IMG/VR virus record: IMGVR_UViG_3300050821_002534
Span: 1-23,084 of that record
DNA length: 23,084 nt
From: a virus
Strand: one strand, 5' to 3'
Numbering within the stretch: position 1 is the first letter of the stretch; every line of letters begins with the position of its first letter. Made by a program: the position numbers and the translations under genes. Under the pieces are notes generated by a model. That model had not been told where the DNA came from. It saw only the letters and a program-made list of their open reading frames with translations, and did not search any database. Below, piece after piece: positions 9,216-23,084 of this stretch.

Positions 9216-9415
9216 GTCACTACCTGCATGGTTGTAGGACCACCATAACCACTCTGACGCACACACCAGCTAACCCTAATATTGCGGTCAATGCGCCGGA
9301 TGTGCTTATTGTCGATCCAAGTGGCGTTCTTTTTGCGGACCATATCCCATGCTTGGTCTACTGATACGTGGTATGTGGTGTATTTGTCAACAACGACTTC
9401 TATCGGTTTAGCCAC
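9212..9415 (-). CDS. Hypothetical protein (67 aa)
   Basis: Unrecognised. MAKPIEVVVDKYTTYHVSVD is followed by AWDMVRKKNATWIDNKHIRR and a basic, Arg-rich end of the helix region (RIDRNIRVSWCVRQSGYGG). The start is the GTG at 9415, overlapping the GIY-YIG stop by 16 nt; no strong ribosome site. Two basic clusters suggest nucleic-acid contact, but there is no domain match by eye. Confidence 0.6.
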   Translation of the reverse strand: MAKPIEVVVDKYTTYHVSVDQAWDMVRKKNATWIDNKHIRRIDRNIRVSWCVRQSGYGGPTTMQVVT

Positions 9416-9729
9416 TCGTAATTTGTACCTTTGCAGGCTGTGTTGTACTTTGGCTGGAAATCCCAGATCATGCGCTTTTCGATGCCTCTAGCGTCACGCT
9501 CTGTTTCCGTATACTTAAATTCAATCCGTGTCCCCTCTGCCAAGGCGCGACGTAATTGCGCGTGCTTGGGATGACTGATACGATGTAGGATGTTTTTTGC
9601 TGACCCAATGTAAAGAGCTTCATCTGAGTTGTTTCGCACGCCCCAGACAGCGTAGACACCTGGACCTAGAAGCAGGTTTATTGTCTTCATTTCCATTGAG
9701 TTGATTTGAGACAGAACTATCGTAGTCAT
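9400..9729 (-). CDS. GIY-YIG family endonuclease (free-standing)
   Basis: A small DNA nuclease, probably a mobile homing-type enzyme. The GIY-YIG core is visible: GVY at 24-26, ALYIGSAKNILHR with YIG at 40-42 and the catalytic Arg R50, the metal-binding Glu E84 in GIEKRMIW, and Asn N96 in QPKYNT. At 109 residues it is a bare catalytic domain without an obvious DNA-binding extension; residues after 97 are only a short tail. The ATG at 9729 is preferred although AGGT upstream is weak; ATGs at 9696 and 9690 are alternatives. A hairpin (9736-9769) covers the ribosome-site region. Insertion between the lysis-like genes and terminase is typical of phage homing nucleases. Confidence 0.88.
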   Translation of the reverse strand: MTTIVLSQINSMEMKTINLLLGPGVYAVWGVRNNSDEALYIGSAKNILHRISHPKHAQLRRALAEGTRIEFKYTETERDARGIEKRMIWDFQPKYNTACKGTNYEWLNR

Positions 9730-18954: not shown

Positions 18955-19232
18955 AACTCAATACCACCCTTTTCAACGCGGTGTTGGAGCAGGTAATAGG
19001 CGTAGGGCCTGACGAGGATTGTGCGTGTGACGCAAAGAGGGGTGCAATGTCGGATGATAACAAGTTATTCGTGGACTATTTGCGAATACAGAATTACCTC
19101 CTGACCCTCGACCCCAAGGCAGCGGTCGCGGCATCGTTCCATATAGGATTTGAATCCGGCCTGCAATACGCGAAGGTTTCCCAGGAAGTGAAACAACTAG
19201 ACAAACTACTAAAAGGAGAATCACCAGCATGA
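18951..19232 (+). CDS. Hypothetical protein (93 aa)
   Basis: MKLNTTLFNAVLEQVIGVGP, a DCACDAKRG Cys segment, DNKLFVDYLRIQNYLLTLDP and a helical C-terminus (SQEVKQLDKLLKGE). ATGA overlaps on both sides; GGAGAA at the end serves the next gene. Unrecognised; located between the ATPase and the SSB-position protein. Confidence 0.7.
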   Translation: MKLNTTLFNAVLEQVIGVGPDEDCACDAKRGAMSDDNKLFVDYLRIQNYLLTLDPKAAVAASFHIGFESGLQYAKVSQEVKQLDKLLKGESPA

Positions 19233-19882
19233 CTACGCTTGACGATGTTCTTTCACAGCTTCAACCGGAGGAGGTGCCCCAAGACATCAATTTCAATGCT
19301 CCCGAGCCTGGGGCCTTTCCACCGGCATTCAAGCCCTCAACGCAGACGTTTGTGTTTCATCTGCCTGAGGACCAGGACCGGCAGTTTGAGGTGGTCACGA
19401 TTCAAGGCCGCAAGTTGCTTCAGTGCAATTTCAACGTGACGGTGAATGTGGATGGCACCGACCGTAAGGTGATGTTTCAACGCGCCAACACGTTCAAGAC
19501 GGATAAGATGGACAACTCGTCGATTGGCAACCTCATCCGCTCCCTCGAATTGAAGGAGGCGTATGAGCAGAATCTTGCCGAAACTGGCGATGTCAATGCA
19601 GCCATCGTTCGCACCCTTCAGGCAGCTGACGGGCGGGCGGCGGGGTCGGCTGATTTTGGGTGGTCGGCTGCGTTCAAGGATTCCCTGACCATCTTCTCGA
19701 CCAAGACGAATAAGACCATTCCTGCGAAGGCAGCGGGGAAGTATACGACTCAGCCTTGGCCGCGCGATGCTCAGGGTGCGTATTGTGCGACGGTGGCGGA
19801 CCCGGCGTCGGGGCAGGAGAAGTATCCGAATCTGGAAATCGTGAGGTTTCGGATTGCCAAGCCGTCGATGGTGACGGCCTAG
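19229..19882 (+). CDS. Possible ssDNA-binding-like protein (217 aa)
   Basis: Function is suggested by position only. It sits after a recombination ATPase and before the polymerase, where many phages carry an SSB or OB-fold protein. The sequence is rich in beta-type segments (TFVFHLPEDQDRQFEVVTIQ, LLQCNFNVTVNVDGTDRKVM) followed by a charged helix NLIRSLELKEAYEQNL and a late PNLEIVRFRIAKPS. No acidic SSB tail is visible. A structure prediction would be decisive. ATG overlaps the previous stop (ATGA) and GGAG lies upstream. Confidence 0.55.
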   Translation: MTTLDDVLSQLQPEEVPQDINFNAPEPGAFPPAFKPSTQTFVFHLPEDQDRQFEVVTIQGRKLLQCNFNVTVNVDGTDRKVMFQRANTFKTDKMDNSSIGNLIRSLELKEAYEQNLAETGDVNAAIVRTLQAADGRAAGSADFGWSAAFKDSLTIFSTKTNKTIPAKAAGKYTTQPWPRDAQGAYCATVADPASGQEKYPNLEIVRFRIAKPSMVTA

Positions 19883-19891
19883 CATAATAAC

Positions 19892-19972
19892 GTGACTCGC
19901 CGCTAAGCATGGTACGGGGGCAGGGGAACACTGGTACCCATGTTGGTAGTTAGTCGGCAATCCCTGAGTCAC
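19892..19972 (+). other. Structured non-coding element between 19882 and the HNH gene
   Basis: An outer stem GTGACTC (19892-19898) with GAGTCAC (19966-19972), and inside it CATGGTAC (19908-19915) with GTACCCATG (19934-19942, one bulge). This makes a nested two-stem element of about 80 nt in the 145-nt gene-free stretch. It may be an RNA leader of the HNH/tRNA cassette. No T-run follows, so termination is not indicated. Confidence 0.45.
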
Positions 19973-19982
19973 ACTTTTCGGG

Positions 19983-20008
19983 TGGGGAGTAGCACAATTG
20001 GCGGTGCG
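19983..20008 (+). other. tRNA-like 5' fragment (acceptor strand plus D-arm)
   Basis: TGGGGAG, then TA at the tRNA 8-9 positions, a perfect D-stem GCAC/GTGC (19992-19995 and 20004-20007) around AATTGGCG, and G. This is the 5' part of a tRNA in correct spacing. It pairs 5 of 7 with the acceptor CGGCCCA of the downstream tRNA-Asn, versus 7 of 7 for that tRNA's own strand. No anticodon arm follows; the HNH ribosome site does. Probably a remnant. Confidence 0.45.
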
Positions 20009-20027
20009 TCAAGGGAGGAGTGATCCA

Positions 20028-20519
20028 ATGAAGAACGGACTATATACACTAGTGATTGCTCCTCCTAACTATCCGGGAAAGAAGTATCGTGGCCGCTATT
20101 GTTATGAGCATAGTCTGGTTGCGTGGAAGAAATACCATAGGCTTCCTGAAGGTAGCGAGGAAGTTCATCATATCAACGACAACAAACGAGACAATAGACC
20201 TGAGAATGTTGAGTACCTGACTGCTGAAGAACACAAGAAGTATCATGGGGCTTTAAGGGCAGTGCCTCCAGTGGTCATACCATGCTGTTTTTGTGAAGGT
20301 ACGTGCTTTATTGTAGCTAGAAACCACCGCCATGCAGTAAAATGTGGCCGCACTGAGTTCCATTGCAGCCGAAAATGTTCTATTAAACACCAACGCACTA
20401 AGGGTTTGATGCGTAAAGGTGGACGAAAACCAAAAGTTTGGGCCGTGCCTCAACCGGGACAGGACGTGACTGTTACTCACGCATTTACTGGTTCGAATCC
20501 AGTCGGCCCAGCCAGTTAA
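20028..20519 (+). CDS. HNH endonuclease with C-terminal zinc finger, overlapping a tRNA gene
   Basis: Free-standing homing-type nuclease. The ATG at 20028 has GGGAGGAG 7 nt upstream; an earlier TTG (19998) lies inside a tRNA-like fragment. HNH core: YCYEHSLVAW (E27, H28), then EEVHHINDNKRDNRPENVEYL with H47-H48, N56 and N60, and HKKYH ahead of the linker. A Cys group (C86, C87, C89, C93, later C106, C113, C117) can form a zinc finger. Residues 138-163 are encoded by the tRNA-Asn gene; the frame stays open through it and stops 5 nt beyond. The protein proper therefore probably ends near residue 137. Confidence 0.88.
   Translation: MKNGLYTLVIAPPNYPGKKYRGRYCYEHSLVAWKKYHRLPEGSEEVHHINDNKRDNRPENVEYLTAEEHKKYHGALRAVPPVVIPCCFCEGTCFIVARNHRHAVKCGRTEFHCSRKCSIKHQRTKGLMRKGGRKPKVWAVPQPGQDVTVTHAFTGSNPVGPAS
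20439..20514 (+). tRNA. tRNA-Asn (GTT)
   Basis: A full 76-nt cloverleaf with encoded CCA. Acceptor TGGGCCG/CGGCCCA is 7 of 7 paired, discriminator G, then CCA. T8, G9; D-stem CCT/AGG with A14, A15, G18-G19 and A21 in place; anticodon stem CGTGA/TCACG with loop CTGTTAC, anticodon GTT at 20472-20474; variable loop of 5; T-arm ACTGG-TTCGAAT-CCAGT. The D-stem is only three pairs. The gene lies inside the 3' end of the HNH reading frame. It may supply Asn-tRNA for AAC/AAU-rich phage genes. Confidence 0.9.
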
Positions 20520-20582
20520 TTGACCTTCTCCCGTTCTCTACTTTGCGGTGGGTCGGACGGGCGAACAGCGGTTTGCAGGGAT

Positions 20583-20644
20583 ACCGTGATGACAAAAACC
20601 TTGACGCGGTTACTGACACCCACCGTGATAACAAAAGGGTGTCA
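20583..20644 (+). promoter_or_regulatory. Leader element before the polymerase: direct repeat and hairpin
   Basis: ACCGTGAT(G/A)ACAAAA occurs at 20583-20597 and 20622-20636 (14 of 15 identical, 39 nt apart). The second copy is the loop of a perfect 8-bp hairpin TGACACCC (20614-20621) / GGGTGTCA (20637-20644). TTGACG at 20601 is a possible -35. The element ends 18 nt before the polymerase ATG and may control it. Apart from this, 20520-20582 holds no signal I can name. Confidence 0.5.
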
Positions 20645-20662
20645 CCCCTTTCTGGAGACCTA

Positions 20663-23084
20663 ATGCCCGTTCAAGGAAGTTTGTGCCGAGGTTGTGCGTT
20701 GGAGGAGAAGGGAGAGATTTTTATTCCTGCTGATGGGCTTGGGACGAATAAGGTGCTTTTAGTTGGAGACTCAGGTTGGATACAGGAGGCGAAAAATGTT
20801 AGACGAATGCGTGAACAAACTGTCGGTACACCTTTCTCTGGGCCAAGTGGCTGGTTTATTGAGCGAAATCTTAAACGTATTGGAGTGGCGCGGAATAGTT
20901 TCACAATCGCTAATTCGTACTGGTGTAAGGCACCTTTCCTTGGATTTACGGATAGACCAGAACGATTCCCAGACGCAGCCCTTGCCTTGGAGCATTGCCG
21001 TCCATACCTCGACGATCTTATAAACCGGATGCAACCCAAAGCCATAGTCCCAATGGGCAATGTGGCCCTCCGACGCATCACAGGCTGTTCAGGCATCGAA
21101 CGCCACCACGCCTATTACATGAGCACGCCCTACGGCATCCCTGCGATTCCAACATTCCACCCCTCCTACATCCTGAAGGGGAATGCCAAGCTGTCGGGGC
21201 TGTGGTGCTATGCGGTCAAGAGGGCGCTTGACGTTGCGCTCAAAGCGGAGCGACCAAAACAGTATGATCTATTGCTTGACCCCTCGTTGGATGAGGCGCG
21301 GCGATACCTGGGGCGGGCGGGGATGCTGGTTTGTGACATTGAAACTCCAATGTCTGATGACGTGGAGGAGGACGAGAGGGATGACGCATCATACACGATT
21401 GTTCGCGTCTCTTTTAGTAATCATGCTGGCACTGCGATTTCTCTTCCTTGGCAACCCCCTTATATATCTCTTATTCGTGATGTGCTTGCCGCTGCCAAGG
21501 AACTTGTTTTCTGGAACCAAAACTATGACCTTCCTCGCCTTCGCGCTAACGGTTGCAATATCGGTGCGCGGGTGGTGGATGCGATGTTTGCGTGGCATTG
21601 GCTTCAAAGCGACTTACCGAAGGCGCTAGGCTTCGTTGCCCCCCTTTTCGTCTGTGTCGAGCCGTGGAAGCAGATGGCTAACCAGGAGCCTGCGAGGTAT
21701 TCGGCCCTCGACAGCGCGATTACGATGGATACCTACCTAGGGATTAAGTCCCAGCTTGAGTCTGAGGGCCGATGGAAGGCGTTTGAGAGGCATTGTGTGG
21801 AGATGTTCCCGGTCCTTGACCGGATGTCGGGGGCGGGGGTGATGCTTGATTTGGAGCACCAGGGCCAGTTTAAGAAGCGGTTGGAGGGCGAACGTGACCT
21901 TGCGTTGGCGAAGTTGCAGGAGCAGGTACCCTATGAAGTGAAGCCCAAAAAGATATACAAACGCTTGCCTAAGGATATGACTAATATCCTTGAGTTTGGT
22001 GAAGGTGATTCTATTGGCTGGGAACGTGTTCTCCCATTCAATCCTTCATCCCCCAAACAGGTTAAAGAGCTAATCTCCTACCTAGGCCTCCCCATCCCCA
22101 AGGCAAAGGGCGAAGACCGCGAATCGACCGAGGCGAAGCACCTGAAATCGTTGGCGCGTAAGAACAAAATCTTTGGTACAATCCTTGAATACCGTGAGCG
22201 GGCGAAGCTGATTGATGCTTATATGTGGGAGGTGGGGCAGGATGGCAAGGTTCACACTACGTTTAGTTTTCATCCAAGTACTTGGCGTAAGTCTGCCCGC
22301 AATCCGAACGTACAAACTGTACCCAAACGAAATGATCTTGCGGCGGAATTTCGACGGATGGTTATCGCCAGTCCAGGTAACATACTCGTTGAATGTGACT
22401 CATCAGCTATTGAAGCGGTATTGGTGGGGTTTTTCGCTAACAGTCCGAGGTACATGGAACTCGCCAAGCGAGGGGTCCACAAGTGGCTCGCTAGTGAATA
22501 TGCACAAAGACCTGTGAGCAAAACGGAGCCATTGTATGACCAGATTAAACGGGTGGTGCATCTCAGCAATTACATGGGGTCACCACAACGCATTTGTGAA
22601 GAATATAGTCATGTTTTTGCTTCGGTGAAAGAGGCACGGACGTTGCAGGACTTTTATTTCTCCACGCCTGCGGGACAAGACATCAAAAAGTGGCATCAAC
22701 AAGTGCTGGAGCAGGCCCACAAGGAACGCTACCTTGAAAATCCGTATCGTTATCGTCACTATTTTTATTCTGTGTTTCAGTATTCAAATGGGCAGTGGGT
22801 ACTTGGAGACGACGCGAAACGCGCGGTGGCGTTTCTCCCTCAATCCACCGCCTCAGCCCTTCAAACCGAATTCGTGTTGGAGATTGAAAGGACGCGACCT
22901 GCCCTTACTAAGACACTCAGGTGGGTTATACACGATTCCATTGTCTGCGAAGTGCCAGTGGAATCCGCCTTGGCTCTTGCCAAGGACCTCAAGGGTGTGA
23001 TGCAGATGGCGCATCCCCTTCTCGGGGGGCTGGCGATTGGTGCTGAGGTCAAGGTGGGGCCGAATCTTAAGGATATGGAGGTGG
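20663..23084 (+). CDS. UDG domain fused to family A DNA polymerase, 3' end cut by window edge
   Basis: Replicative polymerase with an N-terminal uracil-DNA-glycosylase-like domain. GGAG lies 5-6 nt before the ATG; 807 codons are open. UDG part (about 1-200): four Cys at 8, 11, 88 and 112 match the Fe-S ligands of family 4/5 UDGs, with GTPFSGPSG and TFHPSYIL (H166). Motif A reads GDSGWIQE instead of GEAPGxxE. 3'-5' exonuclease: DIE (225-227), NQNYD (D289), YSALD (Y346, D350), all intact. Polymerase: RNPNVQTVPKR, motif A DSSAIE (579-584), motif B around KRVVHLSNYMG (629-639), motif C HDS (757-759). In motif B the usual Arg, Lys and Phe are Lys, His and Tyr. It follows the tRNA/HNH cassette. Confidence 0.92.
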   Translation, partial: MPVQGSLCRGCALEEKGEIFIPADGLGTNKVLLVGDSGWIQEAKNVRRMREQTVGTPFSGPSGWFIERNLKRIGVARNSFTIANSYWCKAPFLGFTDRPERFPDAALALEHCRPYLDDLINRMQPKAIVPMGNVALRRITGCSGIERHHAYYMSTPYGIPAIPTFHPSYILKGNAKLSGLWCYAVKRALDVALKAERPKQYDLLLDPSLDEARRYLGRAGMLVCDIETPMSDDVEEDERDDASYTIVRVSFSNHAGTAISLPWQPPYISLIRDVLAAAKELVFWNQNYDLPRLRANGCNIGARVVDAMFAWHWLQSDLPKALGFVAPLFVCVEPWKQMANQEPARYSALDSAITMDTYLGIKSQLESEGRWKAFERHCVEMFPVLDRMSGAGVMLDLEHQGQFKKRLEGERDLALAKLQEQVPYEVKPKKIYKRLPKDMTNILEFGEGDSIGWERVLPFNPSSPKQVKELISYLGLPIPKAKGEDRESTEAKHLKSLARKNKIFGTILEYRERAKLIDAYMWEVGQDGKVHTTFSFHPSTWRKSARNPNVQTVPKRNDLAAEFRRMVIASPGNILVECDSSAIEAVLVGFFANSPRYMELAKRGVHKWLASEYAQRPVSKTEPLYDQIKRVVHLSNYMGSPQRICEEYSHVFASVKEARTLQDFYFSTPAGQDIKKWHQQVLEQAHKERYLENPYRYRHYFYSVFQYSNGQWVLGDDAKRAVAFLPQSTASALQTEFVLEIERTRPALTKTLRWVIHDSIVCEVPVESALALAKDLKGVMQMAHPLLGGLAIGAEVKVGPNLKDMEV

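Follow-up and report, generated by a model that had tools for sequence, protein, structure and literature searches.

A stretch of viral DNA of 23,084 nucleotides (hereafter the window), part of the genome of a tailed phage from IMG/VR and including portal and terminase genes, contains an HNH nuclease gene that is preceded by the 5' half of a tRNA gene and runs at its 3' end through a complete tRNA-Asn gene. This arrangement is likely to be a free-standing HNH homing cassette which inserts into tRNA genes and comes with a replacement tRNA, present in the window in fused form, with the HNH gene first and the tRNA behind it. The reading is built on the half-tRNA stub, on a nuclease and a tRNA that are both intact, on a relative in which the site is empty, and on phiKZ-like phages, where the same arrangement is found and a clean empty allele exists as well.

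The HNH locus of the window

The features of the locus are collected in Table 1. With an upstream protein 98% and a polymerase 81% identical, L002 is the nearest relative of the window phage; the upstream protein is 62% identical to that of L003, and the UDG-DNA polymerase A fusion 81% identical to L004. A search for more relatives through the upstream gene returned L002 and L003 only. Viral contigs scanned with the HNH protein alone gave no matches, blastn of the locus against phages gave short HNH-motif matches only, and the tRNA-Asn of the window had no match in viral contigs and phages. The hairpin upstream (19883-19982) is unexceptional (z -0.78). No terminators were found at the locus, and the promoter search gave two weak matches.

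Table 1. Features of the HNH locus and their positions in the window
Feature	Position	Strand	Remarks
Upstream gene	19229..19882	+	217 aa, without Pfam or PHROG match; left syntenic anchor
Remnant: 5 nt of old leader and tRNA 5' half	19978..20011	+	Match to tRNA-Asn of L002; 5'-half profile
Shine-Dalgarno region (aagggaggag)	20012..20021	+	Directly 3' of the tRNA remnant; ribosome-binding site of the HNH gene by sequence
HNH_3 endonuclease ORF	20028..20519	+	163 aa; Pfam HNH_3, PHROGs, alignment, AlphaFold model
Complete tRNA-Asn(GTT)	20439..20514	+	Encoded CCA, U1-A72, G73; corresponds to HNH residues 138-163
TAA stop of the HNH ORF	20517..20519	+	Just beyond the tRNA CCA
3' flank common to L002	20525..20609	+	Pairwise alignment; in L002 it follows the uninterrupted tRNA-Asn
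UDG-DNA polymerase A fusion	20663..23084	+	Pfam; runs off the window; right syntenic anchor

The HNH gene starts at ATG 20028, which is preceded by a good Shine-Dalgarno sequence, and a TTG at 19998 upstream is also in frame. Its product matches Pfam HNH_3 with 40.1 bits (cut-off 24.8) and 12 PHROG families, 11 of them annotated as HNH endonuclease. Alignment with homologues revealed that all invariant HNH residues are kept (E44, H47, H48, N56, N60 and H69). The protein is composed of the HNH domain (residues ~20-75), a Cys-rich zinc-finger-like segment (~87-115), which is common to several homologues and is a putative metal-binding site, and sequence of its own up to residue ~137. In the AlphaFold model (one row, from a phage record, was left out of the input) the block means are 94-98 over the HNH domain and the pLDDT is below 50 from residue 132. 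Residues from ~132 onward are unconserved in the homologue alignment and predicted to be disordered. A fold search with the model gave no significant match, I-HmuI being among the weak matches. By these features the protein is an intact HNH_3 nuclease with a zinc-finger-like segment, and it is predicted to cleave DNA. In a tree of the HNH homologues association with tRNAs was clustered (15 changes vs 23 after shuffling, 0/500); the tree is poorly resolved and gave the window protein no supported placement in a tRNA-linked clade.

The tRNA part of the remnant (19983-20011) reads TGGGGAG TA GCAC AATTGGCG GTGC G TC and breaks off past position ~28, within the anticodon arm. It shows the marks of a tRNA 5' half (T8, a four-pair D stem, A14 and GG) and scored 15.3 with a 5'-half profile trained on real tRNAs (shuffle p 0.00175). 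The remnant is identical at 25 of 34 positions to the 5' half of the syntenic tRNA-Asn of L002 with its 5 preceding bases. This value was reached in 0 of 20000 dinucleotide shuffles, and elsewhere in the window no more than 20/34 positions agree. Thus the half-tRNA upstream, unlike the open frame discussed below, exceeds chance. The identity of the stub as a tRNA-Asn rests on this one relative and on the acceptor strand, TGGGGAG, which equals that of L002 at 7/7 positions; the stub ends before the anticodon. For its D arm alone other tRNAs score equally well, and a local alignment of the region to L002 under a strict scheme is weak on its own. When the stub and the downstream tRNA are compared as a simple duplication the similarity is weak; they are not direct repeats, and their acceptor strands form 5/7 pairs. 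The 3' half of the stub's tRNA was not found in the window. The sequence that separates the upstream gene from the stub is unconserved.

At the syntenic place L002 has one uninterrupted tRNA-Asn and no HNH gene, and its flank resumes ~10 bases or less past the CCA of the window tRNA. Since the stub matches the tRNA-Asn of L002 and the L002 flank resumes after the CCA, the HNH gene is situated within a broken tRNA gene and is followed by an intact tRNA-Asn. The HNH gene therefore shows presence/absence polymorphism at this site, being absent in L002, the only close relative known. It may also be that the state of L002 reflects the loss of one of two tandem tRNAs.

The tRNA behind the HNH gene was called as tRNA-Asn (gtt) by ARAGORN and scored 54.4 bits with Rfam RF00005 (gathering score 29, E 2.3e-9). 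It has a cloverleaf, the GTT anticodon, G73 and CCA, and is predicted to be functional. The sequence-only reading of this DNA had described an HNH frame running through a complete tRNA-Asn. This is confirmed, as the ORF crosses the tRNA in frame 0 on the same strand and the cloverleaf is accepted by both programs. Taken alone the open frame is unremarkable and close to chance, because 42 of 103 tRNAs from related loci can be read through in frame 0 (any frame in 35%). That reading had offered either a real tRNA-encoded protein tail or a nuclease which lost its own stop on fusion to the tRNA gene. The fusion with loss of the stop is supported by the unconserved tail and by shorter homologues (L010, L028 and L005 end shortly past the zinc finger); other HNH homologues stop 2-22 nt into a following tRNA. 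A real tail is not supported: residues 138-163 have no counterpart in homologues and belong to the part of the model with pLDDT <50, and the tail is thus most likely a by-product of the lost stop codon. The 5' tRNA half had been overlooked; once it is taken into account, the story is no longer that of a chance fusion but of an HNH gene which entered a tRNA gene and is followed by its replacement.

Between the upstream gene and the polymerase there seems to be a hot spot for insertions. Two other genes occupy this gap in L002, and the distant relative L003 has a different, endonuclease VII-like HNH gene there (L003:5900-6100), which adjoins the inverted repeat tgcttgttggccaacttacacac / tgtgtgtaagttggcaagcag. 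Elsewhere in the window, a GIY-YIG-like ORF at 9400-9729 on the minus strand (Pfam 21.3 bits, slightly below the cut-off) is a candidate for a second homing-type nuclease.

Filled and empty alleles, and recurrence among related loci

Pseudomonas phage Churi has an intact tRNA-Asn (L244:2485-2560). In phiKZ its counterpart is interrupted within the anticodon loop (..CTGTTA / TAATCAC..), and the flanks agree at 220 of 221 bases on the left and with ~98% identity on the right. The phiKZ insert of ~770 bp contains the HNH gene PHIKZ296 and a tRNA-Asn(GTT) that is complete and divergent; HNH proteins of the phiKZ group are ~31-33% identical to that of the window. The intact, empty site is covered by at least 24 records, and 10 break exactly at the insertion point. 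On these alignments phiKZ and Churi form a clean filled/empty pair for a homologue of the window HNH gene. Leftover tRNA halves are altered at constrained positions (G28A in the 5' half of phiKZ, G57T in the 3' halves of phiKZ and Brmt, G34T in the stub of Churi), and no group I intron is detectable in the phiKZ insert. Because of these changes and the lack of a detectable intron, the split tRNA of the phiKZ type is probably dead and replaced, not spliced. A literature search, which mostly covered papers other than subscription ones, found no description of the split in the phiKZ tRNA-Asn, nor of an intron-less HNH cassette that wrecks a tRNA gene and supplies a new tRNA.

Churi has, at a second locus, a 5' tRNA-Asn half, the same cassette tRNA-Asn and the original 3' flank, that is, the layout of the window minus the HNH gene. 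This half with its cassette tRNA-Asn (L244:302-434) could be a footprint after nuclease loss, or the result of conversion that excluded the nuclease. The cassette tRNA-Asn of phiKZ (L243:2433-2519) measures 87 nt, and its variable arm is long; the D and anticodon arms resemble those of tRNA-Tyr, yet it has the anticodon GTT, U1-A72 and G73, so it is possibly a chimeric class II tRNA-Asn. The phiKZ HNH gene is apparently frameshifted near its 5' end as compared to phiHQ (in an A run, L243:2605-2640), and as a result the annotated PHIKZ296 would start at an internal ATG.

HNH profile searches gave ~210 non-redundant related loci, and a tRNA 5' half was found within ~220 nt upstream of the HNH start in 16 of these. 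With a simple score, such halves are enriched upstream of HNH genes when the remaining genes of these loci serve as background (odds ratio 4.2, p 1e-6 at score 18). The layout of the window, with a 5' half, the HNH gene and a complete tRNA (layout B), is shared by L154, L218, L215 and GX15bay, and the same order of stub, HNH gene and complete tRNA is also listed for L005. A Pro half is combined with a Pro tRNA in L154, and the stub acceptor of L218 pairs 7/7 with the downstream 3' strand; stub and downstream tRNA are of different type in L005 and probably in L215. In layout C, found in phiHQ and L049 and also represented by the phiKZ allele, the order is 5' half, complete tRNA, HNH gene and 3' half. 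Psa21 has a 5' half, a tRNA-Asn and an HNH gene, but no matching 3' half.

In layout A matching 5' and 3' tRNA halves flank an HNH-bearing insert. Inserts of this kind split tRNAs in the anticodon loop, with matching halves, in L021, L025, L037, L076 and L093. A group I intron signal was obtained for L093, where it covers the HNH region (69.5 bits), and for L025, where the ORF overlaps the intron core (36.8 bits, E 1e-7). According to a 2014 review, all phage introns known until then were in protein-coding genes (PMC3984707).

Origin of the arrangement

If the locus is a homing cassette, the 5' half of the resident tRNA would be a dead leftover immediately upstream of the HNH ribosome-binding site. 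The complete divergent tRNA-Asn would have entered along with the nuclease gene, or behind it, and been joined to the 3' end of that gene, which would preserve tRNA-Asn function. The HNH frame would cross the new tRNA because the fusion removed the stop and the frame of the tRNA happens to be open. The nuclease would cut intact tRNA-Asn genes of co-infecting relatives, and repair of the break would copy the HNH gene together with the replacement tRNA into the cut gene. The replacement tRNA, whose stems differ, should escape cutting and supply the function. For the copy in the window we infer DNA cleavage, target site, mobility and the function of both tRNAs. The least certain point is the origin of its downstream tRNA, as cargo or as a bystander reached by deletion; phiKZ favours cargo, and the mixed pairs of layout B (L005) suggest that bystanders occur as well.

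A homing gene that sits in an essential gene normally depends on an intron or intein to spare the latter. If the homing-cassette reading is true, the element would solve this problem differently, by supplying a second copy of whatever gene it breaks, which is the logic of an engineered home-and-rescue drive. Tentatively, one may go further and think of a natural home-and-rescue element, in which the HNH nuclease would destroy tRNA-Asn genes through insertion in the anticodon arm and carry a cleavage-resistant replacement, deletion of the element would kill the tRNA, and the fusion in the window would add a brake through removal of the stop by RNase P. The presence of filled and empty alleles in phiKZ relatives makes the cassette testable in a standard laboratory system. 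Duplicated, half and odd tRNAs in phages could be explained by the cassette too, as could HNH genes whose 3' end falls within a tRNA.

It is possible, if somewhat doubtful, that the overlap was selected as a means of regulation, with RNase P maturation of the tRNA stripping the stop from the HNH message and leaving a non-stop mRNA that yields little nuclease. The stop lies inside or beyond the tRNA start in 6 of 8 HNH genes with a 3' tRNA and in 0 of 5 control genes (non-HNH genes ending <=30 nt from a tRNA), which favours such a role. An analogue is known from T4, where the transcript of segB, a gene near tRNAs, undergoes RNase E processing that may reduce the level of endonuclease transcript (PMC2988022). 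However, the 8 HNH genes and 5 controls are small numbers, overlap is also expected where insertions or deletions fuse genes, and an open frame through a tRNA is common. Removal of the stop from the HNH mRNA by RNase P would follow from the anatomy, and it could be selected or a mere scar of insertion. Regulation of this kind is compatible with the homing-cassette reading and not an alternative to it. Separately, the 3' ends of two HNH ORFs overlap a tRNA on the opposite strand by ~20-26 nt (L055:2763-2837 and L228:2928-3001).

An origin by deletion between neighbouring tRNAs is unlikely. Here the HNH gene would have landed in the first of two tandem tRNAs, and the 3' half and the spacer would have been deleted up to the second, a bystander. 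The stubs of L005, and probably L215, being paired with a tRNA of different type would fit this, as would HNH genes that stop just inside the following tRNA, as if a needed tRNA had halted the deletion. Against it stand the single tRNA-Asn at the site in L002 and the finding of one cassette tRNA-Asn at two separate loci in phiKZ and Churi. Moreover, in phiKZ and phiHQ a complete tRNA-Asn lies between the target halves, and thus it came in with the HNH gene.

We consider it quite unlikely that the locus is a decayed group I intron, in which case the HNH gene would once have been part of a self-splicing intron in the anticodon loop of a tRNA, and a second tRNA copy would have come to the rescue after loss of the ribozyme. 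The five layout A relatives, in tRNAs split at the anticodon loop with matching halves, and the intron signal of L025 and L093 point in this direction. Yet Intron_gpI had no match in window positions 19850-20720 at E up to 10, nor in L005, L018, L077, L154, L215, L218, L232 and phiKZ, and the window contains no 3' half for the stub's tRNA.

Ordinary adjacency, with an HNH gene that happens to precede a tRNA and a half-tRNA match that arose by chance, is very improbable, for although D-arm motifs do arise by chance and the strict-scheme alignment is weak alone, the stub match is the best place in the window with 0/20000 shuffles reaching it, and the pattern recurs in many HNH loci and in the filled/empty pair of phiKZ.

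Comparison with known systems

Genomic islands integrate in tRNA genes and restore one end of the gene through integrase recombination at an att site. Such islands supply sequence that keeps the tRNA functional, as the window element would. The window insert differs in that it is without an integrase, leaves the 5' half as a stub and supplies a whole divergent tRNA. A tRNA-restoring island was rejected as its identity, as the stretch from the remnant to the tRNA holds the HNH ORF only and the stub and the tRNA are not direct repeats.

SegB of T4 is, like the window HNH protein, a free-standing homing endonuclease among phage tRNA genes, and Brok-Volchanskaya in 2008 reportedly placed it in a tRNA cluster. 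It is a GIY-YIG enzyme encoded between tRNA genes with a target in the tRNA intergenic region (PMC2988022), and it can amplify tRNA genes against host defence (PMC13096335). SegB drives the inheritance of tRNA genes and its transcript is processed by a host RNase; unlike the window HNH protein, it belongs to the GIY-YIG family, has an intergenic target and splits no tRNA, and no replacement for a destroyed tRNA is described for it. A SegB-type identity was rejected for the window protein, which is HNH_3 and not GIY-YIG.

An intron-borne homing endonuclease, from a work cited by title in PMC3984707, reportedly targets the tRNA anticodon region, as the window element would. It is reported to ride a self-splicing intron, so that the tRNA survives, whereas the inserts of the window and phiKZ have no detectable intron and the split tRNA is apparently lost and replaced. 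A group I intron-encoded endonuclease was rejected for the window, where there is no Intron_gpI match and no matching 3' half.

An HNH-3 domain followed by a C-terminal zinc finger is the plan of the Mob class, to which gp28, gp80 and gp179 of ICP1 conform (PMC10448857), and the window protein has the same domain plan as these and the Mob-class proteins of T4. As in the free-standing Mob-like class, the HNH_3 residues and the zinc-finger-like Cys are present and presence/absence polymorphism is seen; cutting and spread are predicted. The Mob genes of T4, unlike the window HNH gene, lie in or near protein-coding genes (PMC2988022). PHIKZ296 and its orthologues in phiHQ, PA1C and Psa21 resemble the window gene in being HNH_3 homologues with a complete tRNA-Asn beside a split or stub tRNA. 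They differ in order, which is tRNA-HNH in phiKZ vs HNH-tRNA in the window, and phiKZ keeps both halves of the target.
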